Shown here in pieces: positions 6,724 to 28,138 of a DNA stretch of 32,826 nucleotides. The notes below the pieces were generated by a model. It ran no database searches, was not told the origin of the DNA, and saw only the letters and a program-made list of their open reading frames with translations. Both the position numbers and the translations under genes were made by a program. Origin of the DNA: a virus. The stretch lies in IMG/VR virus record IMGVR_UViG_3300044630_002818, positions 1-32,826 of that record; one strand, written 5' to 3'. Numbering within the stretch: position 1 is the stretch's first letter; the number at the start of each line of letters is the position of its first letter.

Positions 6724-9700
6724 ATGAGCTCAACAGATAGACAAAACAGACTTTTATTAGCTGAGGATTGGAAGAAGATATATCAATCGTATCGAAATGC
6801 GGATTTTCAAAGTTATGATTTTGAAAATTTACGTAGAGTAATGATTGATTATATAAGACAGAATTACCCAGAAGATTTTAATGATTACATTGAAAGTTCT
6901 GAGTATCTAGCTCTTATTGATTTAGTTGCATTTTTAGGTCAAAGCATTGCATTTAGAGTAGATTTGAATGCTCGTGAAAACTTTTTGGAATTAGCGGAAC
7001 GTCGTGATAGCATTTTAAGATTGGCACGATTGATTAGTTATAATGCAAAAAGAAATATTCCTGCTCAAGGTCTGTTAAAATTTAATACTATTCAAACCAC
7101 TGAGAATGTGATCGATAGTAATGGAAGAAACTTATCTGGACAAATAATTACATGGAATGATCCATCAAATTCTAATTGGTATGATCAATTCTTTAAAGTT
7201 ATTAATGCAGCATTCTCTCCAAATCAACAATTTGGTAATCCATCTGATAGAGCTACAATCCAAGGAACTCCAACAGAGCAATATAGATTTGAATCATCTA
7301 ATGCTGATGTTCCAGTATATTCTTTTACTAAATCAATATCTGGAAGTACTATGAACTTTGAAATTACTAGTACAACATTTAATGGTCAGAATTATATATA
7401 TGAAGAATCTCCAAAAATATCTAATAAAATTGCTTGTGTATATAAAGACGATGGCAGGGGTTATGGTAGTGCTGGCACTGGATTTTATTTTAATTTTACA
7501 CAAGGTTCATTGAACACTGGAACATTTACAATAACTCAGCCTAGTTCAAACGAATCTATAGATATTGATTCACAAAACATTAATAATAATGATATATGGT
7601 TATATCGATTGGACGCTAATGGCAGTGAATCGGAATTATGGACTCAAGTTCCTAGTTTTGAGGGTAATAATATAATTTATAATAGCATTATAAAAAGTAT
7701 TAGAAATATATACGGTGTTACAACACGGGTTGGTGATTCAGTTAGTTTAACATTTAGTGATGGAACTTTTGGAAACTTACCGCTTGGTACATTTAGAACT
7801 TATTATAGAATAAGTAATGGATTGTCATATACAATAAACACACAAGATATAAAAAATGTGTCAATCGCAATCCCATATACTTCAGTTACCGGACAAATTG
7901 AAACTTTGTCGTTATCACTTAGTTTAGCTACCTCGGTATCCAATTCGGATGCATCTGAAACTAATACAAGTATTAAATCAAATGCTCCAGCAAACTATTA
8001 TACTCAAAATAGAATGATAACGGGTGAAGATTATAATATAAGTCCATTGAGTGTAAATCAACAAGTTCTCAAAGTTAAGTCAGTTAATAGAACATCAAGT
8101 GGTATTAGTAGATATTTTGATTTAGTTGATCCAACTGGAAAGTATAGTACTACAAACTTGTTTGCTGATGATGGTGTTTTATACACCGAAGCATATACAT
8201 CATCCACTAGATTTTCATATGCAACTAGAACAGATATAGAAGGTATTATTTATAATACTGTTTTAGATATAATTTCTAACAACGGCATCCGAAATTTTTA
8301 TTATTCAAATTACATAAATTATGTAACCACAAGTATGAATATACTATGGAATTCTGTGACAACTGATTACAATTCATCGACTGGTAATATAGGTAACATA
8401 TTAGATGGTGAAATTTACGCAGTTGGTAGTACAGTAAATACTTTATTAAAATATATCACACCAGGTGCATTAGTAAAATTTTCAGCCCCAACCGGACAAT
8501 ATTTTGATACTACCAATAATAATAAGTTGACTAATGGAGTCGCTACTCCATTGGGTGCAAAAACTGAAATATGGGCCGAGGTTGTATCGATAATTGATGA
8601 TGGTCGTGCTAATGGTACTGGTGTATTATCAGATGGAACAGGCCCAATTACTATGAATAGAGTTATACCAACTAATGCGATTATAACACAGATAATTCCA
8701 AAATGGAGAACATCACTTGATTCTGCAGTGGTTACAACCATGATCGATTTAATATTCGCTAATAAGCCATTTGGGTTAAGATATGATGCATCAACACAAG
8801 CGTGGAAAGTTATATTTGAAACAAATTTAGATACATCTTCGAATTTTTCATTGTTAAAACAAGGTATCGTTACTAATACTCAACAGGATTCTAGTTGGAT
8901 ATTATTATTCACAACTGATAATGAATACTACACAATTACTAGTCGTGAATCAAGATATATTTTTGAAAGTGATAAACAATTAAGATTTTATTTTGATAGT
9001 AATTTAAAAATATATGATAGTAGAACTAATTCTATCATAAATGATAGAATTAATGTACTTGGGGTAAATAATCAACCTGATAGTACACAACCATTTACTA
9101 CCGATATAAAATGGGATATTGTATCTGAATATGTTGGATTAGATGGGTATGTCGATACTAAAAAAATTATAGTAACTTTTTCTGATACTGATTTCAATGG
9201 TGCAGTTGATAATCCTGAATCATTTTTAAATATAGTGGCTCCTTCTAATAATATATTAACAAAGTATATAGTTTTAGAAAAATATACAATATCAATTGGT
9301 CAAGAAGATTATCGATATGTTTCAAATTCAGACACCAAGGTTAAAATTTTGCAATCACAGACTGATGTTGGCTCATTGATTCAATACCAATCTGGACAAT
9401 ATTTTTATTTTATAGATACTGATGTAGTAAAACAATTAAAACTACCAGCTGGAACATTCACTCCAACGCTTGATTATAAAGTTTATTCTGGTCGAGATAA
9501 TTTAAAGTTTCAATATACTCATAGTGCAGATTATGATTCTAGAATAGATCCAGGGGTTAGTAACATCATGGATGTTTACATCTTGACCAAATCATATGAT
9601 ATATTATATAGACAATGGTTAAATGGTGCATCAGTGGATATGCCATTACCACCTAGTTCCGTTGAGTTATACAATACATTATCAACCAACTTAAATTTAA

Positions 9701-10182
9701 TTAAAGCAACATCGGATGAAATAGTATATCATCCAGTTAACTATAGAATATTATTTGGAAGTAAAGCAACTCCAGATTTACAAGCATCTTTTAAAGTTAT
9801 TAAAACTCAAGGTCAAGTTATATCTAATAATGATATCAAATCACAAGTCATAAGTGCCATTAATGAATTTTTTGCATTAGAAAACTGGGATTTTGGAGAT
9901 ACTTTTTATTTTTCAGAGTTATCGACTTATGTTATGAATAAGTTATCACCAAATATTTCAACTATAGTAATCGTTCCAAGACAGGGGACATTAAATTTTG
10001 GAAGTTTATTTGAAATTAAATCATTAAGTAATCAACTTTTTATCAACGGCGCAACTGTTGATGATATTGAAATCATAACTGGGATTACTACAAGCAATAT
10101 TAAATCTGTGAGTGGAACGGCGGTTGATTCGACCGTATCATCACAGCAATCAATAACAAGTTCATCATATGGGAGTAACTAA
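6724..10182 (+). CDS. 6: Baseplate wedge protein gp6, enlarged
   Basis: In T4, gp6 forms the inner baseplate ring and the core of each wedge with gp7. The N-terminus (residues 1-120) carries the strongest family signal: FENLRRVMIDYIRQNYPEDF, SEYLALIDLVAFLGQSIAFR and ARENFLELAERRDSILRLAR. Around residues 345-430 are baseplate-J-like strands (DGTFGNLPLGTFRTYYRISN, then NYYTQNRMITGEDYN). The end, residues about 1000-1110, has the C-terminal wedge pattern (AINEFFALENWDFGDTFYFS and STYVMNKLSPNI). At 1152 residues it is far longer than T4 gp6 (660), with most extra sequence between about 560 and 1000. Its stop overlaps the next start as TAATG. A 26-bp palindrome lies inside the gene at 9027-9052. 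Confidence 0.85.
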   Translation: MSSTDRQNRLLLAEDWKKIYQSYRNADFQSYDFENLRRVMIDYIRQNYPEDFNDYIESSEYLALIDLVAFLGQSIAFRVDLNARENFLELAERRDSILRLARLISYNAKRNIPAQGLLKFNTIQTTENVIDSNGRNLSGQIITWNDPSNSNWYDQFFKVINAAFSPNQQFGNPSDRATIQGTPTEQYRFESSNADVPVYSFTKSISGSTMNFEITSTTFNGQNYIYEESPKISNKIACVYKDDGRGYGSAGTGFYFNFTQGSLNTGTFTITQPSSNESIDIDSQNINNNDIWLYRLDANGSESELWTQVPSFEGNNIIYNSIIKSIRNIYGVTTRVGDSVSLTFSDGTFGNLPLGTFRTYYRISNGLSYTINTQDIKNVSIAIPYTSVTGQIETLSLSLSLATSVSNSDASETNTSIKSNAPANYYTQNRMITGEDYNISPLSVNQQVLKVKSVNRTSSGISRYFDLVDPTGKYSTTNLFADDGVLYTEAYTSSTRFSYATRTDIEGIIYNTVLDIISNNGIRNFYYSNYINYVTTSMNILWNSVTTDYNSSTGNIGNILDGEIYAVGSTVNTLLKYITPGALVKFSAPTGQYFDTTNNNKLTNGVATPLGAKTEIWAEVVSIIDDGRANGTGVLSDGTGPITMNRVIPTNAIITQIIPKWRTSLDSAVVTTMIDLIFANKPFGLRYDASTQAWKVIFETNLDTSSNFSLLKQGIVTNTQQDSSWILLFTTDNEYYTITSRESRYIFESDKQLRFYFDSNLKIYDSRTNSIINDRINVLGVNNQPDSTQPFTTDIKWDIVSEYVGLDGYVDTKKIIVTFSDTDFNGAVDNPESFLNIVAPSNNILTKYIVLEKYTISIGQEDYRYVSNSDTKVKILQSQTDVGSLIQYQSGQYFYFIDTDVVKQLKLPAGTFTPTLDYKVYSGRDNLKFQYTHSADYDSRIDPGVSNIMDVYILTKSYDILYRQWLNGASVDMPLPPSSVELYNTLSTNLNLIKATSDEIVYHPVNYRILFGSKATPDLQASFKVIKTQGQVISNNDIKSQVISAINEFFALENWDFGDTFYFSELSTYVMNKLSPNISTIVIVPRQGTLNFGSLFEIKSLSNQLFINGATVDDIEIITGITTSNIKSVSGTAVDSTVSSQQSITSSSYGSN
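9027..9052. repeat. Perfect 12-bp inverted repeat with 2-nt centre inside gp6
   Basis: TAATTCTATCAT (9027-9038) is followed by AA and its exact reverse complement (9041-9052). It encodes ordinary gp6 residues around NSIINDRIN. It is AT-rich and has no T-tract, so a terminator role is unlikely. Confidence 0.5.
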
Positions 10183-13100
10183 TGGCTGATAGCACAAAAC
10201 CAAACGCCAGTAATAACATTTCTTCAACCTTTTTACCAAGAATCTATGCAACTGATTTTAATAAAAAGTTTTTACAAGCTACAATGGATCAATTAATTAA
10301 ACCTGGCACTGTTAAAAAAGTAAATGGTTATATTGGTCGTAGAAATGCTAAAGCAACTTCTGGGGAAGATATATTTGTTTCTGCTACTGATACAGTTCGA
10401 CAAAATTATCAATTAGAGCCTGGATTAGTTATTAAAGATACGTTGAACAACACTACCTTGTTTAAAGATTATATTGATTATATCAATCAATTAGACGTAT
10501 TTGGTAGTGATGTATCAAACCATTCTAGAATTAATAAAGAAGAATTTTACAGTTGGGATCCACATATTGATTGGGATAAAATATCGAACTTTCAAAATTA
10601 TTATTGGTTACCATATGGACCAGATGTAGTTAGAATATATGGGCAGAAACATGCTATAGAAAGTACTTACACTGTAAACATAGAATCTGAAGGCGACAAT
10701 AATACATATATATTCACCCCAAATGGATTGGATAGAAATCCAGTACTTACTTTATTCAAAGGACAAACATACAATTTTGAAATAACAAGTCCTGGAAATC
10801 CATTTAGTTTCAAAACACATAGAAGTTCTGGTTCTAGTAATAGATATACTAATATAGGGATGAAAAATAATACTATAGAAACTGGTACTATAACTTTTAC
10901 AGTTCCGCATGATGCACCATCTGTATTATATTATCAAAGTGAAAATGATACTGATTTAGGTGGAGTAATTCACATTTTATCGATTGAAGAAAATTCATAT
11001 ATCAATGTAGAAACTGAGATATTAGGTAAAAAAACATACAAATTACCAGACGGGACACCGTTAAGTAATGGCATGAAAGTTACATTTGGTGGAAATGTAG
11101 AACCTTCTGAATATTCTACTGGAAAATATTATGTTGAAGGTATTGGGTCTTCGATAAGATTGGTTAATGAATCTGTATTAGAGATGACAAGTTCTTATAC
11201 ATCATCAGTTAATGTTGAATTTGATACAACACCTTTTGATAAATTGCCATTCAATGATGCATTATCATATGCAGGGCAGCCAGATTACATTGTTATTAAT
11301 AGAGCTAGTAGAGATCATAATCCTTGGTCTAGATATAATAGATGGTTCCATAAAGATACTATAGAATCGAGTGCTAGATTCAATAATAAAATAGCTGACT
11401 TAGATCAATCAGCAAGAGCAAACCGTGCAATTATTGAATTTGAAGCTGATATAAGATTATTTAATTTTGGAACAACTGCTATTAATGATGTTGATCTTAT
11501 AGATACATATACAACTGATATATTTTCAACAATTGAAGGATCACATGGGTATAACATTGATGGTGTGGATTTACTAGCTGGTCATAGAATTCTAGCAGCA
11601 GCTGATACAGATCCATTAGTTAAAAATAAAATATATGAAGTAGAAATTTTAGATTTTGAACATCTATCATTGAATGGTGTATCCTTATCAAAAATTATTC
11701 ATTTGGTTGAAGTTAGCACACCGACTATTGATCAAGTGGTTTTAATTCATTCAGGTGTTAAAAATCAAGGGGAAATGTATTGGTTCAATGGTGATAATTG
11801 GGTTAAAACACAGCAAAAAACATCATTAAATCAACCACCATTATTTGATGTTGTTGATGACACTGGTGTTAGTTATAGTGATATTAATACCTTTACTGGC
11901 TCTACTTTTAGTGGAACTAAGTTATTTTCATATAAGATTGGATCAGGACCAGCTGACTCAGTTCTAGGATTCCCATTATCATATAAAAATATTAATAATA
12001 TAGGTGATATTGTTTTTAATTTTAACTTAATCTCAGACACCTTTATATATAAAGAACTATCAACAGTTATTAATAAAAAAATTAATGTTGGATATTTATC
12101 AAAAATGGATTATGCTGGGAATACTGAATATGTAAATGGCTGGCAAAAAAATACAATTGATAACACACAAGCTGCGATTAGAATTTATAAATCAACCACT
12201 CAATTAAATGATTTTCAAATTGATATATTTGATAATATTAATGAGTTGGATGATTTAACCATAAAAGTATATGTAAATGGTACTAGATTGGATAATTCTA
12301 AATGGCAGATAATTGATGGTCCAACATATAAAGTCGTGCAGTTAGATACCGATGTAATGCCAACAGATATATTAACTATTAGAGCATTTGCAGCACAGGG
12401 AATTAATGGGAACGGGTACTATGAAATACCATTAAATCTCCAGAACAATCCAATGAATGATGAGATGACTGATTTTACACTTGGTGAAGTTATTGATCAT
12501 GTAAATTCAATTGTTGATAATTTATCAAACTTTTCTGGTGATTTCCCAGGCACTAGTAATTTAAGAGATTTGGGTAATATATCACAATATGGTACTCGAT
12601 TCATACAACACAGCGGTCCAGCAAGTTTATCTTTATACCATATAACAACTGAAACTAACAATATTATAAGATCAATAGAAAAAAGTAGAGATGATTATGG
12701 TAATTTTAAACGAAATTTTATTAAAATTGCTGAACGTACAGGGGTAGACATTGATGTAATAACACATATAGATCTAATATTGGATAAAATTAACAAAGAT
12801 AAACCGAATACTTTTCCTTATTATTTTAGTGATATGGTTCCATATGGTGCTAGTATAAAAACCACAATACAAGTAGTTGATTATAGAATAAAACTTTATC
12901 CATTAACAACTGTATTCACAACAGAAACATTATCTAATAAAGCTGTAATTATATATGTTAACAACGAGCAATTATTACATAGTCGTGATTACTATTTTGA
13001 TGGACAAGGATTCGTTGTTATAACATCAAAATTGATCAATGATGATATTATAACAATTTATGAGTATGAAAATACCGATGGATGTTTTGTTCCTGAAACA

Positions 13101-16100
13101 CCAACAAAGCTAGGACTATTTCCAAAATATCAACCAATGATATATCTTGATACTAGTTTTATAACACCACGATGGATGATTCAAGGACACGATGGTAGTC
13201 AAGTATTGGCATATGGAACATATGATGCTAATGGTACTCCTGATTACCGTGATGCATTGTTATTAGAATTGGAAAAACGTATTTACAACAATATTAAAGT
13301 ACAATACGATATAACAATATTTGATTTAAATGATACCATTCCAGGATATAACAGAAAAACCGACTATAGTTTATCAGAATTCAATACAGTTTTAGCTCCT
13401 AATTTTTATAAATGGACATCATTAATAGATCGAGATTTTTCAAAACCATTGAGCTTTGATAGAAGTAATTCATTCACTTATAACTATTCAGGGCATTCAG
13501 CACCAGATGGAAGTAACGTTCCAGGATATTGGCGTGGGGTATATAAATGGATTTTAGATACTGATAGACCGCACCTGTGCCCGTGGGAGATGCTAGGATT
13601 TACTGAAGAACCATATTGGTGGACAGATGTATATGGACCTGCGCCGTATACTAGTAATAATTTTGTATTGTGGGATGACATTAGCAATGGCTATGTAAAA
13701 GAACCAGGTAAGCCTACTATTAGATTGGAAAAGTATGCTAAACCATTTATAACAAACCATATACCAGTAGATGAATATGGTGCATTGGTGAGTCCTATTA
13801 TGTCTGATTTGGCAAATGGGATCATAACTGAATCAATTGGTGGTGATTTTGTGTTTGGTGATAGCAGCCCAATTGAATCAGCATGGAGACGTAGTTCATA
13901 CTACTCATTTGGGATTTTAATTACTGTATTATTATTAAACCCAAATAAATCTATCGGAGTATTATTAGATCGTTCTAGGATTATTAGAAATAAAACAGGA
14001 CAACTAGTATATAAAGACACAGGATTACGAATCAAACCAAGTGATATTGTACTACCAAGTATTCAATCTAGTAATACTAGAGAACAGACTGCTGGCATAA
14101 TAAATTATTTAGTTAATTATATTTTAAGTGATAATTTAAAATCATATACGCAATATCAATATGATTTAACCAATATTTCAGCTAGAATATCGCATAGACT
14201 TGGATCTTTTACAAGTAAAGAAAAATTCAATTTATTATTAGATTCCAAGACCCCATTGTCAACTGGTAGTGTTTTTGTACCGCAAGAAAATTATGATATA
14301 ATTTTGAATAGTTCAAATCCTATTAAAAAAATTACATATAGTGGTGTAATTGTTACCAAAATGGCTGATGGATTTGAAGTTAAAGGATATAGTAAAACCA
14401 CTCCATATTTCAAATATTATGCATGGCAACAATCAGGAATTACAATAAATGTTGGTGGTATATCAGAAAGTTATCTACAATGGACATCAAATCAACAATA
14501 TTCTGCTGGTAAAATTGTAAATTATAATGGAAAATATTATAGAGTAAAATCATTACATACAACTGGTACAACATTTGACCAATCATATTATCAAGTATTA
14601 GCTGAATTGCCTATTATAGGTGGTAAAGATGCAATTCTAAGAAAACGTTGGGATAGAGAATCGGCATTAATTATTCCGTATAATACTAAATTTAGAACTA
14701 CACAAGAAGTAGTAGATTTTTTACAAGGTTATGGTGAATATTTAAAAGATCAAGGATTTATTTTTGATGATTTTAATACTAATATAGCCAGTGTAACTAA
14801 CTGGGAAACCAGTGCGAAAGAATTTTTATTCTGGACTACTCAAAATTGGTCAACTGGGCAAGATAAATGGGATGAATGGGATGCTGATGTATTAGTATCA
14901 TATGGATCAATAGTGCGATATAACGGTGATTATTATCGTGCAATCAGAAATTCTCAATCATCTATATTCAACGAACATGATTTTGCAAAATTGGATGGGT
15001 TGAGTTCTATTGGAAGTTCGGTGATTTCATTAAGTCCAGCTGCTGAAAAATTAACATTTAGTTCACCATTATCAGTTGTTGATGATATTACCAATTCATT
15101 TAATGGATATGAAATATATCGCGTAGATGGTCAAGCTATACCATATAACTTCTTGAATTCGTATAGAGAAGATAATGCAGTTAGTTATACACCACAGGGT
15201 GATGACGGTATTTATGGCGCTACCTTTTACTTAGTTCAAAAAGAGCAAGTTGTTATTCTAGATAATTCTACAATGTTTAATGACACCATATATAATCCAG
15301 AAAGTGGATATAAACAAGATAGAATAAAAGTATCTGGATATCTTAGTATTGGTTGGTATGGTGCATTTGATGTGCCTGGTTTTATCTTTGATCAAGCTAA
15401 AATACAAGATTGGGAAGCATGGAAAGATTATGCGCTTGGTGATATTGTAAAATATAAAGAATTTTATTATAGTTCTAGTAAATTTATAAATGGTACTAAT
15501 GAATTTAATCATACGTTATGGATTAAACTAGATAAAAAACCTGAAGCAGCGTTACTTCCAAATTGGAATTACAAAGCCAGTCAATTTGAAGATTTTTATA
15601 GTTTGGATAGCGATAACTTTGATATAACACAACAAAAAATGGCACAACATTTGATTGGATATCAAAAACGTCAATATTTAGAAAATATTATTCAAGATGA
15701 TGTTAGTGAGTTTAAATTTTATCAAGGAATGATACTTGAAAAAGGGACTCAAAATGTATTGAATAAACTTTTTGATGTATTAAGTGCCGATAACCAAGAA
15801 AGTTTGAAATTTAACGAAGAATGGGCAGTTCGGGTTGGTCAATATGGCGCTAGTAATTCATATGAAAATATTGAATTTATTTTAGATGAATCACTATTCA
15901 AAAATAATCCACAAGGAATTGAGTTGGTGAATAAAATTGATACCACTTCTGTTGATTTTATTATAAGACAATCACAAAATGATGTATATTTAAAACCAGT
16001 TGGATACAATTCAAATCCATGGCCAATGTTAACATCTAAAAAACCATTTTTAAGAACTTCTGGGTATGTGAGAGAAGATGAAGTATTAGTTAGCTTAAAA

Positions 16101-19100
16101 TCAATTGATGATATTTTAACACAAGATATTACAAATTTTTCTAATGGTGATTACGTATGGTGCTCATTTGATATAAACGGATGGAATGTTTATAGATATA
16201 CAGATGCAAATATTGTAATTAATGATATTACTTATAGCAATAATAAATTAACTATTACTGCTGATTCATTAATTTCATTACCTATTGGATCTTATATTGG
16301 GATTAGAGAAAACATAAAAGTTGATGGTACATATATAACAACTGGTATAAGTGGATTTTATAAAATTTCCGATGTTAAACTAAATGTATTAACGATTGAC
16401 GTAATTGGATTGCAGATAGATCTACCATATGAAAATAATAAAAATACCATAATTTATTCATTTATAAGTCAACGTGTTGATTCTATAGATAATATTGATT
16501 TAAAACTACCAAAAGTATTAAAGGAAAATGAGTTATTATGGACTGATGACAATGGAACAGGAATGTGGTCAACATGGGAATACTCTCAGGTTTACACACG
16601 TACTACCCATTTATATAGAAATCCAAGTAATAACTTGAAATATGGTAAGGTAATTTCAATAAATTCAGATGCTAGATTACTTGCGACTACCTTAGAAACT
16701 GGAGAAGTTATAACATATGATAGAGGAAGTAGTACTGGCCCATGGGTACAACGTCAAATCATTGAAACTCCATTTATAACCCCGGATGTTGACCATGTAA
16801 ATCCTAATGATGTTTCAAATATTGCAAATGTTATTGCAATGTCTATTGATAATAGATGGATGGCAACCGGATCTCCTAACACTAGTAATGGTTCATATCA
16901 AACGAATGGATTTATTAATGCTATTGATGAACAGTTAAATGCATCAAGTATTGTTAATCATGGTGTGATATCGTTATATGAAAAAGATATTAATAATATC
17001 TATACACTAGTCGCAACCATTTTAAGTCCAAACCCAACTCAGAATGAAAAATTTGGTTCAAGTTTATTTTTTGGTATTAATTGCTTATATGTTGGTGCTG
17101 AGTATGGAAATGGTACTGTGTATAAATTAGAATATTCTAATACAGAATGGGTATCTGCATACTATGATGAAATAGGAAGCAAAGGAACCACAATAAAATT
17201 ATCTACAGTATCGGGAATACTACCTGGAATGAAAGTAACTGGTATTGGATTTACAAAATCACAAACCGTAGTAAGTGTAGATTCTGTTAATAAAACCATA
17301 TTATTAAACCTAGAACCTGATTCAACCCCAACTGGAATTATTAAGTTTATTACAACTGAATGGAAATATAATACATCAAAAACAAAACATGGTACTAATA
17401 CAAATAGTGGATATGGCAATAAAATAGTTGGTACTGTTGATGGATCTACTCTTTTAATTTCAGCTCCTGGTAACATTGATTTACCTGGTAAAGTATTTGT
17501 ATATGAAAATGATGTATTGGCACAAACAATTGGTGGAACTAATGCATATTTTGGAAAAGATATAACTATTTCATCATCTGGTGAATATATTTCTATTTCA
17601 GACATTTTATTTGATGGTGATAAAAATAATGAAGGTAAAGTTATTGTTTATAAAAACAATGGTATTGAGTATGAATTATATCAATCATTAATAAACAATA
17701 ACATAGAAGTATCTGGATATTTTGGTACTAAATTATTATTTACAAATGATTATAAAACATTATTGGTTTATAGTAAAAATGCTGACACTCAGGTGAAATG
17801 TAATTTTATAGATGATACTACATTTGATGATAAAACTACCATATTTATTGATGAAAATAATTTAGATAGTGGAAGAATTGATGTTTATAACAATTATGGG
17901 TCTAAGTGGGTTTTTAGTGAAAGCTTAGAAATGACTGATTCTGAGGTTGATGGATATGGCACTGTCCTGACTGCCTCAAATAATAATATTTTAGTTAGTT
18001 CACCATATGCTTTTTCTAATAATATAAAAGCTGGAGTAATATATGAATATAAAAAACAACCAAATGTATATAGTTGGAAAATTAAACATAGTGAAATATT
18101 AATTCCAGACGTTAAAAAAATAAAACAGGCGTTCTTATATAATAAATCAACCAATGAATTAATAAAATACTTGGATATAATTGATCCATTAAATGGTAAA
18201 ATAGCAGGTATTGCTGAATCGGAAATAAAATATAAAGTTTTCTATGATCCAGCGATATACACAGTTGGGACATCAACTGTGAATGTTGATGATGGTATGG
18301 CATGGACTACTAAAAATATTGGAACATTATGGTGGGATTTGAGAACTTCAAAATTCATTGATAGTAATGATAATGATGTTGTTTATAGAAACAGTACATG
18401 GAGTACATTAGCAACTGGTGCATCTGTTGATATCTATGAATGGGTTGAATCAAAATATCTTCCATCTGACTGGGATTTACAAGCTGATACTGAGGTTGGG
18501 TTGACTATTGGTATGAGTGGTAAATCATTATATGGAGATGCAGCATACAGTATAAAACGAAAGTATGATAATGTTAGTAAAACATTTAAAAATACATATT
18601 ACTATTGGGTTAAAAATAAAAAAACTACACCTAATACAACTGGTAGATATATTTCTGCCCAAGATATATCTAGTTTAATATCAAACCCACGTGGGGAAGG
18701 ATATCAATATCTTGCATTGACTGGTTCTAATTCATTTAGCTTGGTTAATGTAAAATCATTATTAAATGATAAAAACGTTGTATTATCAGTTGAATATTGG
18801 TTAGTTGAAAACAGTGAGAATAATATTCATTCACAGTGGAAAATGTTGAGTACAGATGTTAATAGTACCATACCTTCACAATTGGAAAAAAAATGGATTG
18901 ATAGTCTATGTGGAAAGGATGAACAGGAAAGAGTAATACCTGATACAACATTGCCATTAAAATTACGCTATGGGGTTGAATTTAGACCTAATCAAAGCAT
19001 GTTTATAAATCGATACGAGGCATTAAAACAATATGTTGAACAGACCAATTTAATATTAAAATCTAGATTAATCACTGAAACACGCGATATTAGTAACCTA

Positions 19101-22100
19101 GAAAGTTATGAAACCGAACCACATATTATACGAGGATTATATGATGATATAGTTGATACTGATGCAGAATTAAGATTTGCAAATATCAACTCTTATTCTA
19201 GACCTGTTATAGAACCGCAAATAATTGATGGAAGAATTACTGGTATTACTATAAAAAGTTCTGGTAGAGGATATATTAATCCACCATTTATTGAAGTTGT
19301 TGGTTCAGGTGTAAATGCTGTTATTAAAGCTAAACTTAATGGATATGGGCAAATTGATGGTGTTACTATTATTAACAGTGGATATGGATATAATGACAGT
19401 ACTATTTTAGTGGTAAGGGATTATTCTGTATTAGTTCATAGTGATTCTCAATCATCTGGTGTATGGAGCATTTATTCATATGATCCAACAACATTATTAT
19501 GGTCTAGAGTTCGTTCACAAACATATGATACTAGAAAATATTGGAATTATGTTGATTGGTACGATAATGGGTATAATCAATTTAGTGCAATACAATATTC
19601 AGTGGATACATATAGTGATTTAAATTCAATTGAAGTTAATATTGGAGAATTAGTCAAAGTACGATATACAAATTTAGGAACGTGGGTCGTATTGAAAAAG
19701 TATGCTGATTCTCAGTCAATTGATTGGACGAGTTCATATCAATTAATAGCATCACAGGACGGTACTATTCAATTAAGTAGTTCATTGTATGAGTTTTCTC
19801 ATACAATTGTTGGATATGATAATTTGTTATATGATGGTGGAATATTTGATAATAGTGCATCAACTGAATTGAGAGTTATATTGAATAGCATTAAAAATGA
19901 CATTTTCATTGATGATTTGAAAACTGAATATTTAAATTTATTTTTTACATGTGTAAGATATGTATTAAGTGAACAATCCTATGTTGATTGGATATTTAAA
20001 ACTAGTTTCATAAAAGCAAAACATAACTTAGGCGAATTGCACCAATCTGTTACATACAAAAATGATAACCTAACAAATTTTGAAGAATATGTATCAGAAG
20101 TAAAACCATATAGAACTAAAGTACGTGAATATATTAGTGCATATAATAAAACTGAATTAAATCAATTATCAGTTACTGATTTTGACATACCACCAATATA
20201 TGACAATGGAAATATTGGGATGATTGAGACAACAGTTACAGATGGTATTATTAATATAGATGACTCTCATATTCAATCATATCCATGGAAACATTGGTTG
20301 GATAATGTTGGATTTAATGTACTTAGTATTACAGTAGTTAATGGTGGTTCAGGTTATATTAGTGAACCAGTAGTTCGAATTAATGGTAACTCAAAAATTG
20401 CAGCTACTGCAAAAGCTTTTATTGCAAATGGTAAAGTTACTCGTGTGATTTTAATGACAACTGGTTCAGGGTATTTGTCTGCACCAATTATTCAGTTAGA
20501 TGGTGGGTTATCGCCTACTGGCACAACTGCAACTGCAGTTGCTATAATCGGTGATGGTGTTATTCGTTCAAATCTGGTTAAGATAAAATTTGATAGAATT
20601 ACACAGTCATATTATATTACTAAATTACAAGAGATAGAAACATTCTCTGGAACTGGTTCTCGCTTAATATTCCCATTAAAATGGGCACCAGACGTTAGAG
20701 TAGGTACATCAACGGTCACCATTAATGGTATTGATGCATTACGAGATGATTATAAATTAAAAATTGTAAAAACAGTTGTTAATGGTCATACTAATTATGT
20801 AGGGTCATTAACATTTTTAACTGCACCATCAAATAATGCAATCGTTTCAATCACATACATAAAAGATTGGTCATTATTAAATGCTGCCGACAGAATTCAA
20901 TATTATTACAATCCAGGTGATGGTGAGTTAGGTAAAGATTTGTCTCAACTGATGACTGGTATTGATTATGGTGGTGTTATTGTTAGCGGTCTTGGATTTG
21001 AAGTAAGCAGAGGTTGGGATAGTTCACCATATTATTCAGACAAATGGGATACTATGGATTCAACATTTGATGATTATATTGTGTATGTTGCAGCTGATAC
21101 ACGAGAATTTAATTTACCGTATGTTCCAGAAACAGGAGTAGTAATAACGGTATATCATAAACCGGCTGATTCTACAGATGATCCATTGAGAATAGATGAT
21201 CAATATTATAATACTGTTGATCAAACTAATAGTAATGCGGTAATGTCATCGTTTATTGGTGATGGGATTCATAAAACAATAACGATTCCAGATTCAGTAG
21301 ATGTTAATGAAAATGATGAATTCATCTTTAGAAAGATAACAAGTGATGGTTCTATAAAACCACTTGAAGCTGATTATGATACTGCATTAAGTGGTGGTGA
21401 TTTAGTATATTCAACAGCAAGAGGGTTGGCTGCTGATGATATTATTATAGATGGGGATGGTTTTATTACACCGACATCATCACCAGCACCAGAAGAAGTA
21501 ATACCAGGACAAGTTGTTGATACTGTTGCAATTAAAGTATTTGATATGCAATCTAATGGTTCAGCTAATATAAACATTGATAATTACTATGCTGATGGTA
21601 TTGTAAAAACTTTTCCAATAACACATGGTAGTACTAACAATAAGTCTATCATTGTTAAAGTAAGTACTAATAATCAGTCAGTTATAAAATCTATTGGTGT
21701 GGATTATTCAATAGATGGTATTACTAATGCAATTGTTTTTGGTCAAGCACCGGTAGCTGATTCACTTATATCTATTTTCGAAATTGGATACAGTGGTAAT
21801 AATTTACTGGATATAGGCCATGATATAGGAGATGGTAATACTAAAGAATTTTTAACACGTGCACCATGGTTGCAACCAGTATCATCCTTGGTTAATATAA
21901 ACGGCGTTTCAGGATCATATACTTTGATAAATCAGGATGGTTTCATTGCAATTAAATTTGATGAAGCACCAGAAGTTTATTCAAATATAGATTATATAAT
22001 AAGTAATGGAGTAAATCAATCATTTTCATTTTCTAAAATTGAAAAGATCCCGGTTGATGGTCGCGCATCATCATTGCCATATTCATTAATGACAACTTAT

Positions 22101-23756
22101 GGTGATTCACTGCCGCTTGAAGCAAAAATGATTGTACGTGTTGATCAGGCTATATTAAAAGCACCAAATAATAGTTATTTTACTATAAAAAGCAACAAAT
22201 TAAATTATACTGTTAATAAAATAAACAAACAACCATATAAGGATGATGTTTATACAATAAATGTATATGCCGGTGGTAAATTGTTAACGATAGGTGCAGA
22301 TTATTCAATTGATCTAAGTGGTATAACTGTAAAAATAACAAAAGATTCATATACCAAATATAATGGAGAACAATTAGTTATTAGTTTAATAAGTGACCAG
22401 GGTTATTCTTATGTACCTGCAACATCATCTGAACCAGCAAAAATATATTTTAAAGAAATATATAATAGTTCAAATACTGTTGAGATTATTAATTCATATC
22501 AACACGCCAATTTAGATATTCAACGTTCTGATTTAAATTTAGATATTACATTAGTATCAGAAGAACCAGAATATTATATATATAATAATATTTTAGGTGG
22601 AATTATCACATTGGATAGACCAGTTATTAATGACAATTATGTGTGGGTTGTTAAAAATGGAATACTATTAATACCTAGTGTTGATTTCAAGTTGAATGAG
22701 AATAAATCATCTATTGAAGTTGTTAATGGTTCAATTTCAACAGACGAATTTTCAATAATTACTTTTGGAAGTAATATATTATTGCCTTCAATAGCATATA
22801 TGCAATTCAAAGATATGTTGAATAGAACTCATTATAAACGATTGAGTTTGAAAAAACAAACTACACTTGTAAATGAATTGAAATGGAATGATACAATTAT
22901 TACAGTTGTTGATGGAAGTAATTTTGATAAACCAAATCCAACTAATAATAAACCTGGTATTATTGAAATACGAGGTGAGCGTATTGAATATTTTGAAATT
23001 ACCGGTAATATTCTTAGCAAGTTACGTAGAGGAACACTTGGAACTGGTACTCCTACCATTCATGAAGTCGGATCATTTGTGCAGGATATCGGTGCAAGTG
23101 AAACTATTCCATATTCAGAAGCACCAATTACAAAACAAATAGTATCAACTGGATCTAAAGTAATTGAGTTGGACGATATTATACCAACTAAATCTTTAAC
23201 AACATGGACTTATGATTCTGGATATATTTCATCCATCCCATCAACTTATGGTCAAGCGGATGATATTGAAGTATTTATTGGTGGTTATGATGATAGTTCA
23301 ATGTGGGTATCTAGTGTAAATTATGCAATTGATGATATTGTGATTATAGGTAGTTATACATATAGATGTAAAGAAGCACATATGAGTGGGTTATCATTCC
23401 ATGATGATATTTTAAAATGGGATTTTTTCATTGGTAATATACGTCTAAAGAAACAACCATATAAAGTACATAATGTTAATATAAATCAAGATAGTCCATC
23501 TGGTGATATACAATTTGATGCAGATTTTGCAGTTGATGGTACATCAAGTACTATACGATTGACTAATGAATTATCATCTGGTACTAGAGTTACGATTGTC
23601 AAACGTTCCGGGATCAACTGGGATGGGTATAATATGGATTTATTAAATCAGGGGTATAGACTTGGTAATTATAGTAGTAGTGTTTATGGTGGGTCTGATG
23701 CAATATCAACATTTTTAAAAGCAGAACCAGGTATATGGTATTCATTGTTAAAATAA
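10182..23756 (+). CDS. Giant multidomain baseplate wedge protein in the gp7 position
   Basis: This 4524-residue protein follows gp6 directly (TAATG overlap, GGGAG site), the place of gp7 in T4 (1032 residues), whose product joins gp6 in the wedge. The frame is open for 13.5 kb with codon use like its neighbours. Visible parts, by approximate residue: a conserved opening (SSTFLPRIYATDFNKKF); a cupredoxin-like beta domain at 167-268 without copper ligands; chitin-binding-like modules at 1430-1473, 1562-1605, 1741-1783 and 4372-4417; a probable FG-GAP-type beta-propeller at 2157-2626; SGxGY motif pairs at 3017-3077 and 3379-3443; repeated GDGxxxxF beta modules at about 3488-3945; and near the end NKPGIIEIRGERIEYFE with LSKLRRGTLGTGT. 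The gp7 call rests on position and wedge context. Large parts may project outward as a peripheral, possibly glycan-binding structure. Confidence 0.65.
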   Translation: MADSTKPNASNNISSTFLPRIYATDFNKKFLQATMDQLIKPGTVKKVNGYIGRRNAKATSGEDIFVSATDTVRQNYQLEPGLVIKDTLNNTTLFKDYIDYINQLDVFGSDVSNHSRINKEEFYSWDPHIDWDKISNFQNYYWLPYGPDVVRIYGQKHAIESTYTVNIESEGDNNTYIFTPNGLDRNPVLTLFKGQTYNFEITSPGNPFSFKTHRSSGSSNRYTNIGMKNNTIETGTITFTVPHDAPSVLYYQSENDTDLGGVIHILSIEENSYINVETEILGKKTYKLPDGTPLSNGMKVTFGGNVEPSEYSTGKYYVEGIGSSIRLVNESVLEMTSSYTSSVNVEFDTTPFDKLPFNDALSYAGQPDYIVINRASRDHNPWSRYNRWFHKDTIESSARFNNKIADLDQSARANRAIIEFEADIRLFNFGTTAINDVDLIDTYTTDIFSTIEGSHGYNIDGVDLLAGHRILAAADTDPLVKNKIYEVEILDFEHLSLNGVSLSKIIHLVEVSTPTIDQVVLIHSGVKNQGEMYWFNGDNWVKTQQKTSLNQPPLFDVVDDTGVSYSDINTFTGSTFSGTKLFSYKIGSGPADSVLGFPLSYKNINNIGDIVFNFNLISDTFIYKELSTVINKKINVGYLSKMDYAGNTEYVNGWQKNTIDNTQAAIRIYKSTTQLNDFQIDIFDNINELDDLTIKVYVNGTRLDNSKWQIIDGPTYKVVQLDTDVMPTDILTIRAFAAQGINGNGYYEIPLNLQNNPMNDEMTDFTLGEVIDHVNSIVDNLSNFSGDFPGTSNLRDLGNISQYGTRFIQHSGPASLSLYHITTETNNIIRSIEKSRDDYGNFKRNFIKIAERTGVDIDVITHIDLILDKINKDKPNTFPYYFSDMVPYGASIKTTIQVVDYRIKLYPLTTVFTTETLSNKAVIIYVNNEQLLHSRDYYFDGQGFVVITSKLINDDIITIYEYENTDGCFVPETPTKLGLFPKYQPMIYLDTSFITPRWMIQGHDGSQVLAYGTYDANGTPDYRDALLLELEKRIYNNIKVQYDITIFDLNDTIPGYNRKTDYSLSEFNTVLAPNFYKWTSLIDRDFSKPLSFDRSNSFTYNYSGHSAPDGSNVPGYWRGVYKWILDTDRPHLCPWEMLGFTEEPYWWTDVYGPAPYTSNNFVLWDDISNGYVKEPGKPTIRLEKYAKPFITNHIPVDEYGALVSPIMSDLANGIITESIGGDFVFGDSSPIESAWRRSSYYSFGILITVLLLNPNKSIGVLLDRSRIIRNKTGQLVYKDTGLRIKPSDIVLPSIQSSNTREQTAGIINYLVNYILSDNLKSYTQYQYDLTNISARISHRLGSFTSKEKFNLLLDSKTPLSTGSVFVPQENYDIILNSSNPIKKITYSGVIVTKMADGFEVKGYSKTTPYFKYYAWQQSGITINVGGISESYLQWTSNQQYSAGKIVNYNGKYYRVKSLHTTGTTFDQSYYQVLAELPIIGGKDAILRKRWDRESALIIPYNTKFRTTQEVVDFLQGYGEYLKDQGFIFDDFNTNIASVTNWETSAKEFLFWTTQNWSTGQDKWDEWDADVLVSYGSIVRYNGDYYRAIRNSQSSIFNEHDFAKLDGLSSIGSSVISLSPAAEKLTFSSPLSVVDDITNSFNGYEIYRVDGQAIPYNFLNSYREDNAVSYTPQGDDGIYGATFYLVQKEQVVILDNSTMFNDTIYNPESGYKQDRIKVSGYLSIGWYGAFDVPGFIFDQAKIQDWEAWKDYALGDIVKYKEFYYSSSKFINGTNEFNHTLWIKLDKKPEAALLPNWNYKASQFEDFYSLDSDNFDITQQKMAQHLIGYQKRQYLENIIQDDVSEFKFYQGMILEKGTQNVLNKLFDVLSADNQESLKFNEEWAVRVGQYGASNSYENIEFILDESLFKNNPQGIELVNKIDTTSVDFIIRQSQNDVYLKPVGYNSNPWPMLTSKKPFLRTSGYVREDEVLVSLKSIDDILTQDITNFSNGDYVWCSFDINGWNVYRYTDANIVINDITYSNNKLTITADSLISLPIGSYIGIRENIKVDGTYITTGISGFYKISDVKLNVLTIDVIGLQIDLPYENNKNTIIYSFISQRVDSIDNIDLKLPKVLKENELLWTDDNGTGMWSTWEYSQVYTRTTHLYRNPSNNLKYGKVISINSDARLLATTLETGEVITYDRGSSTGPWVQRQIIETPFITPDVDHVNPNDVSNIANVIAMSIDNRWMATGSPNTSNGSYQTNGFINAIDEQLNASSIVNHGVISLYEKDINNIYTLVATILSPNPTQNEKFGSSLFFGINCLYVGAEYGNGTVYKLEYSNTEWVSAYYDEIGSKGTTIKLSTVSGILPGMKVTGIGFTKSQTVVSVDSVNKTILLNLEPDSTPTGIIKFITTEWKYNTSKTKHGTNTNSGYGNKIVGTVDGSTLLISAPGNIDLPGKVFVYENDVLAQTIGGTNAYFGKDITISSSGEYISISDILFDGDKNNEGKVIVYKNNGIEYELYQSLINNNIEVSGYFGTKLLFTNDYKTLLVYSKNADTQVKCNFIDDTTFDDKTTIFIDENNLDSGRIDVYNNYGSKWVFSESLEMTDSEVDGYGTVLTASNNNILVSSPYAFSNNIKAGVIYEYKKQPNVYSWKIKHSEILIPDVKKIKQAFLYNKSTNELIKYLDIIDPLNGKIAGIAESEIKYKVFYDPAIYTVGTSTVNVDDGMAWTTKNIGTLWWDLRTSKFIDSNDNDVVYRNSTWSTLATGASVDIYEWVESKYLPSDWDLQADTEVGLTIGMSGKSLYGDAAYSIKRKYDNVSKTFKNTYYYWVKNKKTTPNTTGRYISAQDISSLISNPRGEGYQYLALTGSNSFSLVNVKSLLNDKNVVLSVEYWLVENSENNIHSQWKMLSTDVNSTIPSQLEKKWIDSLCGKDEQERVIPDTTLPLKLRYGVEFRPNQSMFINRYEALKQYVEQTNLILKSRLITETRDISNLESYETEPHIIRGLYDDIVDTDAELRFANINSYSRPVIEPQIIDGRITGITIKSSGRGYINPPFIEVVGSGVNAVIKAKLNGYGQIDGVTIINSGYGYNDSTILVVRDYSVLVHSDSQSSGVWSIYSYDPTTLLWSRVRSQTYDTRKYWNYVDWYDNGYNQFSAIQYSVDTYSDLNSIEVNIGELVKVRYTNLGTWVVLKKYADSQSIDWTSSYQLIASQDGTIQLSSSLYEFSHTIVGYDNLLYDGGIFDNSASTELRVILNSIKNDIFIDDLKTEYLNLFFTCVRYVLSEQSYVDWIFKTSFIKAKHNLGELHQSVTYKNDNLTNFEEYVSEVKPYRTKVREYISAYNKTELNQLSVTDFDIPPIYDNGNIGMIETTVTDGIINIDDSHIQSYPWKHWLDNVGFNVLSITVVNGGSGYISEPVVRINGNSKIAATAKAFIANGKVTRVILMTTGSGYLSAPIIQLDGGLSPTGTTATAVAIIGDGVIRSNLVKIKFDRITQSYYITKLQEIETFSGTGSRLIFPLKWAPDVRVGTSTVTINGIDALRDDYKLKIVKTVVNGHTNYVGSLTFLTAPSNNAIVSITYIKDWSLLNAADRIQYYYNPGDGELGKDLSQLMTGIDYGGVIVSGLGFEVSRGWDSSPYYSDKWDTMDSTFDDYIVYVAADTREFNLPYVPETGVVITVYHKPADSTDDPLRIDDQYYNTVDQTNSNAVMSSFIGDGIHKTITIPDSVDVNENDEFIFRKITSDGSIKPLEADYDTALSGGDLVYSTARGLAADDIIIDGDGFITPTSSPAPEEVIPGQVVDTVAIKVFDMQSNGSANINIDNYYADGIVKTFPITHGSTNNKSIIVKVSTNNQSVIKSIGVDYSIDGITNAIVFGQAPVADSLISIFEIGYSGNNLLDIGHDIGDGNTKEFLTRAPWLQPVSSLVNINGVSGSYTLINQDGFIAIKFDEAPEVYSNIDYIISNGVNQSFSFSKIEKIPVDGRASSLPYSLMTTYGDSLPLEAKMIVRVDQAILKAPNNSYFTIKSNKLNYTVNKINKQPYKDDVYTINVYAGGKLLTIGADYSIDLSGITVKITKDSYTKYNGEQLVISLISDQGYSYVPATSSEPAKIYFKEIYNSSNTVEIINSYQHANLDIQRSDLNLDITLVSEEPEYYIYNNILGGIITLDRPVINDNYVWVVKNGILLIPSVDFKLNENKSSIEVVNGSISTDEFSIITFGSNILLPSIAYMQFKDMLNRTHYKRLSLKKQTTLVNELKWNDTIITVVDGSNFDKPNPTNNKPGIIEIRGERIEYFEITGNILSKLRRGTLGTGTPTIHEVGSFVQDIGASETIPYSEAPITKQIVSTGSKVIELDDIIPTKSLTTWTYDSGYISSIPSTYGQADDIEVFIGGYDDSSMWVSSVNYAIDDIVIIGSYTYRCKEAHMSGLSFHDDILKWDFFIGNIRLKKQPYKVHNVNINQDSPSGDIQFDADFAVDGTSSTIRLTNELSSGTRVTIVKRSGINWDGYNMDLLNQGYRLGNYSSSVYGGSDAISTFLKAEPGIWYSLLK

Positions 23757-24410: not shown

Positions 24411-26549
24411 ATGTCATATCAAGTAACATTTACCGAAACAAATAATTCATCTAAACAAGCAATAACAGTTGCAGATCAGTCATTAAATGTACAAACTGAT
24501 TTAACATTCGTTGGGAAAAATTTTTCAGGATATGGTCCATATGTTGCGGAAAATTTTTTACATTTGTTAGAAAATTTTGCTAATGTATCACCTCCATCTA
24601 AACCTGTACAAGGTCAATTATGGTTTGATAATTCTCCATCTATAAATCAATTAAAGGTATATGATGGAACTAACAATGGGTGGGTAATCGCGGGTGGAGT
24701 TAAAAAATCAACAACTGCTCCTTCTAAAGAATCGAGTATAGCAGGTGATATATGGGTTGATACTACCAACCAACAATTAAATATATTTTCAGGTTCTGGA
24801 TGGCTATTGGTAGGCCCTCAGTATAGTTCAGGTTCTAAAACTGGGCCAATAAATGAAACTGTTGTAGATGTTAACAATATCTCTCATAGTATTATATCGA
24901 TGTATTCAGCAGATAATAGAATTTCTGTTATTAGTAAAACAACATTTACACCTAAGACAACTATTATTGGTTTTAATACAATTAAAGAAGGTATTAATAT
25001 AAGTAGTATTAATTCTGATAATACCATCACTAATACGCCAAGTAGATTTTGGGGAATAGCTGAAAAGGCTGATTCATTAGTAATTAATGGCCAAACTGTA
25101 AATTCATCTAATTTTTTGAGAACAGATGTAACAGTACCATCTAATGTACAATTAAGTATTAGATCTGATAATGGTATTAAAATAGGAAGTGATTTATTAT
25201 TTAGTATAACAACTTCTTCTAATTCTGCTATGATAAAATCAAGCGGAAAAACAATTGATTTTAGTGTTAATAACACTGCATCTATTGTTCATATGGATGC
25301 TACTAAAGTTGGGATAGGCACAAATAATATAAACCCATCAGAAGTATTAGATGTCTTTGGAAATATAACCACTAGTGGTGCATTGATAACTAATGGTACA
25401 AAGGATTCAACTGGGTATGGAATCATCGTTAATTCTGGTGGAATATTAGTAGCTAACAACTCTACTTTTAGTAAAGATGTAACGATACAAGGTAAATTGT
25501 ATCTAAGTAATTTGGATAATACTGGTTTACCAGTTAATACAAGTGTAATACTACCATCTGATACAATAAGTTATGATATTGGTTCATCAATCAAAAAATT
25601 TAGATATGTATATGCAAATCAATTTATTGGTGATTTGAACGGTAATATTACTGGTACATTAACTGGTGATATAACAGGTAAAGCAGCACAATTAGCAAGT
25701 CCTACTAGATTTAGTATGACTGGTGATGTTGTTAATACCAACATTGTTGATTTTGATGGTAGGTCTGGCCCTGCAACATTTAATACTGTTATTTCTCAAG
25801 ATTTAATAACATCTAAAAGCCGCATAACTACTTCAATCGATACTGATGATTTTTTAATTTATAGATCATCTGTTGCAAACATTGGTCTTAAAAAAATATC
25901 AAAAGCTGCAATATTCTCGAATGTAGCTACAGTACCAATTGGCACAATATTGCCATATGCTGGACAAGCAGCCCCGACTGGATACTTGTTATGTGATGGA
26001 AGTGAGGTTTTAATCAGAGATTATACAGATTTATATAATTTAATTGGATATACATATAAAGGTGTTGATGCATTAGATGGTGCTGGTACATTTTCATTAC
26101 CTGATCTACGTGGGCGATTTGCGCTTGGTCGTGATAATATGGATAATAATACGACGGTACCAAGCAAAGCAGATCCTAACATATTAGTTGATGCAGGAGG
26201 TGGTTCCGCCAATAGAGTAACAGATTTATCTGCTGATGTTATTGGATATAACTCTGGTTCAGAAAATAAATCATTGGTTTTTAATAATATACCAGATCAT
26301 AAACATGATTTGAAATCTGATTCACCAACTAAATCACAACAGTATTATGCAGTTGGATTGCCTAATGCTGAATATGATGATAGTGACGGTGTAACTCCTG
26401 CAAGGGGAATGCCAAATTCTAGTACTGGAAATGCATTATCAAATAGTGGTGGTGTATTAACTCCGCCTAATACAAGTTTGGGACAACCGTTTTCAGTGAT
26501 GAATCCATACTTAACAATTAATTATATAATTTTTACTGGTGTACTATAA
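24411..26549 (+). CDS. Tail fibre with tail-collar domain (fibre paralogue 1)
   Basis: This 712-residue protein is probably a trimeric receptor-binding fibre. Residues 1-230 are the domain shared with the next two genes: GKNFSGYGPYVAENFLHLLE, then GQLWFD, a GDIWVDTTNQQL strand and FWGIAEKADSLVING. Residues about 230-500 are a repetitive beta-rich shaft (FIGDLNGNITGTLTGDITG). Residues about 508-575 form a phage tail-collar domain (VPIGTILPYAGQAAPTGYLL, then CDG and FSLPDLRGRFALG). A DHKH motif at 629-632 resembles the HxH pair that binds zinc in the T4 short-fibre protein gp12. The end, SVMNPYLTINYIIFTGVL, is the usual collar-fibre terminus. Its stop overlaps the next paralogue as TAATG. Confidence 0.8.
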   Translation: MSYQVTFTETNNSSKQAITVADQSLNVQTDLTFVGKNFSGYGPYVAENFLHLLENFANVSPPSKPVQGQLWFDNSPSINQLKVYDGTNNGWVIAGGVKKSTTAPSKESSIAGDIWVDTTNQQLNIFSGSGWLLVGPQYSSGSKTGPINETVVDVNNISHSIISMYSADNRISVISKTTFTPKTTIIGFNTIKEGINISSINSDNTITNTPSRFWGIAEKADSLVINGQTVNSSNFLRTDVTVPSNVQLSIRSDNGIKIGSDLLFSITTSSNSAMIKSSGKTIDFSVNNTASIVHMDATKVGIGTNNINPSEVLDVFGNITTSGALITNGTKDSTGYGIIVNSGGILVANNSTFSKDVTIQGKLYLSNLDNTGLPVNTSVILPSDTISYDIGSSIKKFRYVYANQFIGDLNGNITGTLTGDITGKAAQLASPTRFSMTGDVVNTNIVDFDGRSGPATFNTVISQDLITSKSRITTSIDTDDFLIYRSSVANIGLKKISKAAIFSNVATVPIGTILPYAGQAAPTGYLLCDGSEVLIRDYTDLYNLIGYTYKGVDALDGAGTFSLPDLRGRFALGRDNMDNNTTVPSKADPNILVDAGGGSANRVTDLSADVIGYNSGSENKSLVFNNIPDHKHDLKSDSPTKSQQYYAVGLPNAEYDDSDGVTPARGMPNSSTGNALSNSGGVLTPPNTSLGQPFSVMNPYLTINYIIFTGVL

Positions 26550-28102: not shown

Positions 28103-28106
28103 TAAG

Positions 28107-28114
28107 AATAAATA
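28107..28114 (+). promoter_or_regulatory. Putative late promoter, unit D
   Basis: AATAAATA lies 24 nt before the ATG at 28139 in the 36-bp gap after fibre paralogue 2. A start near 28120 would leave a 19-nt leader with an AAGGA ribosome site at 28124-28128. Spacing and sequence match the other three putative late promoters. Confidence 0.6.
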
Positions 28115-28138
28115 TACTATCATAAGGAATTAAATACG

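Follow-up and report, generated by a model that had tools for sequence, protein, structure and literature searches.

T4 gp7 (1032 aa) and P2 gpI mark the position of the third protein of the baseplate wedge, and the gene of the former directly follows gp6. In marine cyanophages, the order gp25-gp6 is followed by a giant gene, of which the product is 3.9-4.5 kaa long in P-HM2 (annotated as gp7; 4454 aa), P-TIM68, S-8S55, Bellamy, ACG-2014f, and DSL-LC03, and reaches 6817 aa in ACG-2014d. These cyanophage giants match T4 gp7 with an hhalign probability of 94.7 and an E-value of 6e-8 via the motif FYs.KGt..S...LFK.LY. Other giants are known from phages related to RaK2, and RaK2 ORF070w, PBECO4 gp538, CBB_236, PA5oct gp355, Atu_ph07 gp180, the Phosso protein, and SCTP-2 gp140 belong to one and the same family, PHROG_10938, filed under 'head and packaging'.

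We analyzed the whole of a virus record from IMG/VR, 32,826 bases long (hereafter the window). The original prediction for this DNA was that a single frame of 4524 residues, comprising 41% of the window and lying in the position of T4 gp7, encodes a baseplate protein built from many domains, which would add a large mass around the baseplate and may have receptor-binding or anchoring functions. We consider that the giant is probably the third wedge protein of jumbo phages (T4 gp7 / P2 gpI position), composed of conserved cores and inserted outer beta domains. What we add is modest, namely a probable link between the jumbo giants and gp7 through a segment with a KGT motif (the KGT segment), and a map of stepwise insertions.

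The giant gene and the baseplate operon

The giant gene (10182..23756, plus strand) starts with ATG and comprises 4524 codons and a stop codon. Its product (509 kDa, pI 4.8) showed no obvious transmembrane stretch over the 4524 aa. The start codon lies in a TAATG overlap with the gp6 gene, and GGGAG approximately 8 nt upstream provides the ribosome site. Given the base composition of the window, the probability of finding no stop over this frame is ~10^-170, and position-specific GC is even along the ORF (GC3 of 0.12-0.17 per 500-codon block). A second 4524-aa ORF on another IMG/VR contig (L016) is 99.9% identical to the giant, relatives with 34-86% identity were alignable across most of its length, and ~65 further viral contigs possess relatives of its best-conserved stretch. 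A chance ORF and an assembly chimera were ruled out by the stop-free odds, the even composition, and the independent contigs. Thus, the single long frame is real, being supported by the ATG-initiated frame, the almost identical twin, and the conserved relatives.

Upstream of the giant gene, we found the homologs of gp53 (phrog_7145), a gp5-type hub (phrog_13211), a gp25-type protein (phrog_261/43), and a gp6-type wedge subunit (6724..10182, plus strand; phrog_10646, E=1.5e-299), the last of which shares 1 nt with the start codon of the giant. The giant therefore lies directly after gp25-gp6 as T4 gp7 lies after gp6, in agreement with the position originally predicted. The genes downstream encode a 208-aa protein (phrog_11259), collar/fibre-like proteins of 712, 517, and 508 aa, and then a glycine-rich protein of 980 aa. 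The locus is a baseplate operon with the gene order seen in PA5oct and its relatives. Altogether, the giant is real; it belongs to the structural proteins of a large phage with a tail and is encoded in the T4 gp7 slot. On the minus strand near the start of the window (268-1098), there is a divergent 276-aa ORF at the place where PA5oct has a late-transcription sigma factor, a suggestion by position only.

Affiliation to PHROG_10938

The giant matched PHROG_10938 with an E-value of 0 and 1069.9 bits in five stretches, and the pieces of the split protein matched in order. It is thus one more member of a family of giant wedge proteins that had been catalogued before and is not new in kind. The orthologs are 3326 aa in RaK2, 3333 aa in PBECO4, 3332 aa in XaC1, 3342 aa in Munch, ~3344 aa in CBB, and ~3345 aa in GAP32, and are longer in Vibrio phage 2.275 (3771 aa), SCTP-2 (3807 aa), PA5oct (3857 aa), Atu_ph07 (4449 aa), and Phosso (4555 aa). 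The shortest, in CM1, is unannotated (3138 aa). The relatives on viral contigs with a complete ORF are mostly of 3.9-4.9 kaa, and the largest one, for which two overlapping loci on its contig have to be taken together, is 5190 aa. Since the orthologs span 3138-5190 aa, the giant is mid-sized for its family, and an exceptional size is not supported; the corresponding proteins of cyanophages are as long as 6817 aa. On two contigs, L058 (3721-13092) and L072 (3297-8921), the longest ORFs were 3123 and 1874 aa, respectively, far below the family length.

In 10 of the 11 annotated orthologs fetched (PA5oct, Atu_ph07, Phosso, RaK2, PBECO4, CBB, XaC1, Munch, GAP32, and Vibrio phage 2.275), the giant gene comes after gp6, and in CM1 a gp6 match was also found just upstream of the giant. 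The exception is Salicola phage SCTP-2 (L006, 2609-11899), in which the giant is preceded by a 3096-aa protein and the gp6 match lies ~90 kb away, across two genes. The members of PHROG_10938 share with the giant the post-gp6 slot in most cases, the same two cores, and a comparable or larger size, and some of them have been detected in virions. The 'head and packaging' label of PHROG_10938 is probably a mislabel, as the giant's gene sits in a baseplate operon.

Mass spectrometry of virions, which the original prediction named as a check, gave positive results for the relatives; the data concern the orthologs in PA5oct, CBB, and phAPEC6 and not the virus studied here. The annotation of PA5oct gp355 carries an ESI-MS/MS note, and CBB_236 was detected in virions with 21 peptides (PMC5259590). 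In phAPEC6, gp245 (381.9 kDa), which adjoins the wedge protein gp244, was detected with 17 peptides (PMC7247149); we infer from gene order and size that gp245 is an ortholog of the giant. A 4455-aa 'structural protein' adjoining a wedge protein was also reported from a Sinorhizobium phage (PMC11242549). The size of the giant and the alternation of core and variable regions would suit a protein cut into several chains that act as separate parts after assembly. Nevertheless, the published peptide tables present one single protein, albeit at low coverages of 7.6% and 7.7% (PMC7247149, PMC5259590), and no cleavage signal was identified, albeit without a systematic search. We regard such processing as very improbable.

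Relationship to T4 gp7

No full-length match to the T4 gp7 family was obtained with any block of the giant (hhalign probability <1%). Blocks and sliding windows of the giant likewise gave nothing significant by hhalign against T4 gp7, gp6, gp8, gp9, gp10, gp11, gp12, gp53, gp5, wac, and P2 gpI. The HPxGF segment, which is common to T4 gp7 and the ACG-2014d protein, was not found in the giant, and a candidate for it located by eye near residue 3250 was unsupported on comparison. What the giant appears to share with T4 gp7 and P2 gpI, besides the gene position, is a short segment with a KG motif. The helical KGT segment of the giant (residues 1800-1985, with KGT at 1854-1856; 15579..16136, plus strand) is among the most conserved parts of the protein. 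Residues 1846-1866 follow the pattern FYqG.i.eKGT...l.KLF in the jumbo family, in which K-G does not vary across the aligned sequences, and we regard the segment as a candidate for the equivalent of 'FYSTKGI..SYKFLFK' in the core of gp7/gpI.

When compared with the corresponding cyanophage segment, the giant's KGT segment aligned KGT to KGT with a probability of 40 and an E-value of 3e-4. With the combined cyanophage and T4 profile, the windows covering KGT (1850-1870) ranked at the top of 110 windows, scoring 23.5-24.9 against 16.5 for the next one, and the score of the 1786-1905 window (23.9) was reached by none of the 300 column permutations. The match probability of the KG-motif core was 18-40%. 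In the AlphaFold model of residues 961-2010, the KGT region received a pLDDT of 28-45, too weak for recognizing a gp7/gpI fold, and the PDB profile searches with the KGT and N-terminal segments returned no match or chance matches. The N-terminal LP..helix segment (residues 16-45; 10227..10316, plus strand) is conserved in all orthologs, with P19, G52, and R73 being invariant residues of the N-terminal region. By eye, this helix may correspond to the core-bundle helix of gp7/gpI, and its profile comparison with the cyanophage N terminus was not significant.

Two readings of these results need to be weighed. The giant may be unrelated to gp7 and may have replaced it in the same slot, the resemblance around KGT being convergence or chance; neither a full-length nor a second-motif similarity to T4 gp7 was found, and a KGT match probability of just 18-40% fits this idea. 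On the other hand, the sole scoring window placed KGT on KGT in one of the most conserved stretches, and the gene slot has been kept across most of the family. We consider the replacement unlikely. As one short core segment outscored the rest of 110 windows and 300/300 permutations, the homology to gp7 is probable, not proven. Because HPxGF is missing and the model of the KGT region is not confident, we describe the giant as a gp7-position wedge protein with a core probably shared. We count against the wedge reading the lack of an overall gp7 match, the missing HPxGF, the weak AlphaFold model of the KGT region, the gene order in SCTP-2, and the PHROG label.

The cyanophage giants resemble the jumbo giant in bearing insertions around the KGT core and in sharing GSGY and other beta modules, whereas the alignment between the two is limited to the KGT segment and shuffled modules. 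KGT is found at residue ~200-710 in the cyanophage giants and at 1854 in the jumbo giant. The spacing between LP and the KG motif is ~86 residues in T4, ~180 residues in most of the cyanophages checked, ~690 in ACG-2014d, and ~1837-1840 in the giant. In the ACG-2014d protein (L089, 9307-29760), KGT (711) and HPxGF (3610) lie thousands of residues apart. As a tentative and rather doubtful proposal, the gp7 core may have been prised apart, with the LP helix and KGT kept as the wedge anchor, and independent insertions may have made a glycan-contacting shell of ~3 MDa, if six copies are present. If this is true, a single wedge protein has been expanded into the giants of both jumbo phages and cyanophages, and the carbohydrate-binding modules are an outer layer gripping polysaccharides beside the fibres.

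Under our main interpretation, the giant annotated as 'virion structural protein' in RaK2-like and related jumbo phages is probably a gp7-position wedge subunit. With its link to the cyanophage giant gp7, the annotation of jumbo phages would gain the gp7 that it lacks.

Conserved cores and inserted modules

The comparison with the RaK2-type orthologs assigned residues 1-140, 360-890, 965-1436, 1497-1559, 1613-1738, 1789-1985, and 2641-3660 to the core. The last of these is the second conserved core (18102..21161, plus strand), retained in the RaK2-type orthologs. The plug-ins absent from the RaK2-type include a 70-residue insert at 892-964. Compared with the other members of PHROG_10938, the group of the giant has added the carbohydrate-binding (CBM) modules 2-4, and compared with the RaK2-type it has also added a cupredoxin module, CBM module 1, and an FG-GAP propeller.

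The cupredoxin-fold module (residues 143-274; 10608..11003, plus strand; phrog_677, E=4e-14) is absent in the RaK2-type. Foldseek matched it to rusticyanin, AcoP, and CueO (E-values of 3e-5 to 2e-4) with a Greek-key fold. By inspection of the translation, the His/Cys/His/Met copper site was not found, with 'YYQSENDTDLGG' replacing the C-H-M loop, and the module appears to have lost the copper ligands. It also constitutes the C-terminal domain of gp9-type fibre connectors of cyanophages (phrog_677, tblastn).

Four CBM5/12-like modules were identified on the plus strand, three of them as stretches with a Pfam PF02839 score of 39.4 bits against the cut-off of 26.2. Module 1 (residues 1437-1496; 14490..14669; PF02839) is the most widespread of the four, being absent in the RaK2-type and common to PA5oct, Atu_ph07, and SCTP-2. 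Module 2 (residues 1560-1612; 14859..15017) was found in the close group only, and its single match in CM1 is probably an alignment artefact. Module 3 (residues 1739-1788; 15396..15545) is restricted to the close and mid groups, being common to the mid-distance contigs. Module 4 (residues 4369-4423; 23286..23450) matched the PDB profile 1ed7 with an E-value of 0.0015 (Pfam E=0.074). As modules 2 and 4 hardly occur outside the close group and modules 1 and 3 are wider in distribution, the modules were gained separately, each at its own site. Structure prediction, another check named originally, recovered the CBM5/12 fold in the model holding modules 1-3 (Foldseek to 1ed7, rmsd of 1.9 A over 44 columns) and did not confirm the KGT region.

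Residues 1990-2640 (16149..18101, plus strand) form an FG-GAP (integrin-alpha-type) beta-propeller, which evolves faster than the core and matched integrin alpha-4/X/L/M in the PDB (hmmsearch, E=2e-5). GSGY-type motifs occur at 3028, 3065, 3389, and 3428 and are common to wedge PHROGs and the Dpo31 tailspike. GSGY-type beta module a (residues 3010-3080; 19209..19421, plus strand) matched the baseplate wedge families phrog_2885/719/708 and the Dpo31 tailspike (28lx_A/8ck1, E=6e-4). Module b (residues 3386-3460; 20337..20561, plus strand) matched phrog_701/708/438 and, by blastp, the cyanophage 6817-aa protein. GSGY modules recur in cyanophage wedge proteins and other phage structural proteins. 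The C-terminal chain of beta modules (residues 3661-4524; 21162..23753, plus strand) is variable, being missing or replaced in several relatives, and one of its modules (residues ~4208-4287; 22803..23042, plus strand) resembles a module inserted in cyanophage gp7 (hhalign probability of 74, E=3e-5). The Pfam matches to Sgo0707_N2, Pox_A6, Pirin_C_2, Gp18_dom_I, and TFIIF were below the cut-off and ignored. The cupredoxin-like domain, four CBM-like modules, propeller-like region, and GSGY motifs of the original prediction were all recovered, supporting a multi-domain structural protein in the wedge operon. Judged from these matches, the modules have been shuffled among the structural proteins of phages and are not private to the giant.

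With its gene, family, gene order, module identities, their stepwise presence or absence, and purifying selection (see below) established here, the giant would be arranged as follows. In each wedge, both gp6 copies would be joined by the two cores (~1-1985 minus the plug-ins, and 2641-3660 as the second one), and the KGT segment at 1854 is the foremost candidate for making the contact in the wedge core. The beta domains (cupredoxin, four CBM5/12-like, FG-GAP, GSGY, and C-terminal chain) would have been inserted singly at tolerated loop sites and would sit on the baseplate exterior, where they would enlarge the baseplate and dock fibres or neighboring proteins. They perhaps give weak, non-specific contact to cell-surface polysaccharide. 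The outer location, the KGT segment as the wedge core, and the adhesive role are what we infer, and six copies per particle would be expected by analogy with T4. The CBM, cupredoxin, and FG-GAP modules, acquired step by step at fixed sites, offer a testable case of baseplate enlargement by insertion, and the insertion map bears on whether wedge-borne modules contribute to adsorption.

Selective constraint and host contact

We calculated omega by comparing the giant with an 86%-identical relative. The values fell within 0.03-0.22 in every segment, indicating purifying selection throughout. The core (~0.03-0.12) was more constrained than the propeller (0.155), GSGY, and C-terminal parts (0.13-0.22 for these parts as a whole), and the cupredoxin and CBM modules gave 0.07 and 0.10-0.22, respectively.

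The giant may take part in receptor binding. A mainly adhesive giant, attached to host glycans or an anchoring surface through its CBM5/12, propeller, and C-terminal modules and sharing in receptor binding, would agree with the CBM5/12 scores above the Pfam cut-off, with the difference in modules between lineages, and with modules 3 and 4 keeping, by inspection, at the domain end the C-terminal Trp expected in the CBM5/12 ligand site. The wedge protein Gp119 of the Herellevirus Vp4 (831 aa) also carries inserted CBM folds and has been shown to bind cells (PMC11406892), yet it belongs to the wedge-3 (A511 gp105) family and its folds are of CBM16 and xylanase types. Against this role, all the modules are under purifying selection, modules 1 and 2 lack the C-terminal Trp, the cupredoxin appears devoid of copper ligands, and the 980-aa neighbor is far more variable. 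Furthermore, a CBM5/12-like fold is present in a baseplate protein of a contractile injection system, Anabaena Cis13/All3316 (7b5h_AE), which differs from the giant in being a small separate protein (154 aa); its authors treated the part after residue 100 as a membrane helix (PMC8894136). We thus find it improbable that the giant is mainly adhesive and prefer a structural wedge protein, with the primary host recognition most likely residing in the fibre genes just downstream.

The 980-aa glycine-rich, fibre-like protein (window 29675-32617) is encoded by the gene that diverges most within the operon. In the nearest relative, the identity is 93% for gp6, 86% for the giant as well as the 517- and 508-aa proteins, and 67% for the 980-aa protein. 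In a more distant genome, the latter could be aligned only partially, at ~30% identity, and a pattern scan, sensitive to close relatives only, found it at nearly full length on one other contig only. Because it diverges far more, the 980-aa protein is a better candidate for host-specific recognition than the giant, indeed the best one, and is likely the receptor-binding tip. The consecutive 712-, 517-, and 508-aa fibre/collar-like proteins (window 24411-29665) have ~200-350 N-terminal residues in common at 32-42% identity. As their N-terminal parts are shared, the three look like paralogs, and they may all attach at one site of the baseplate.
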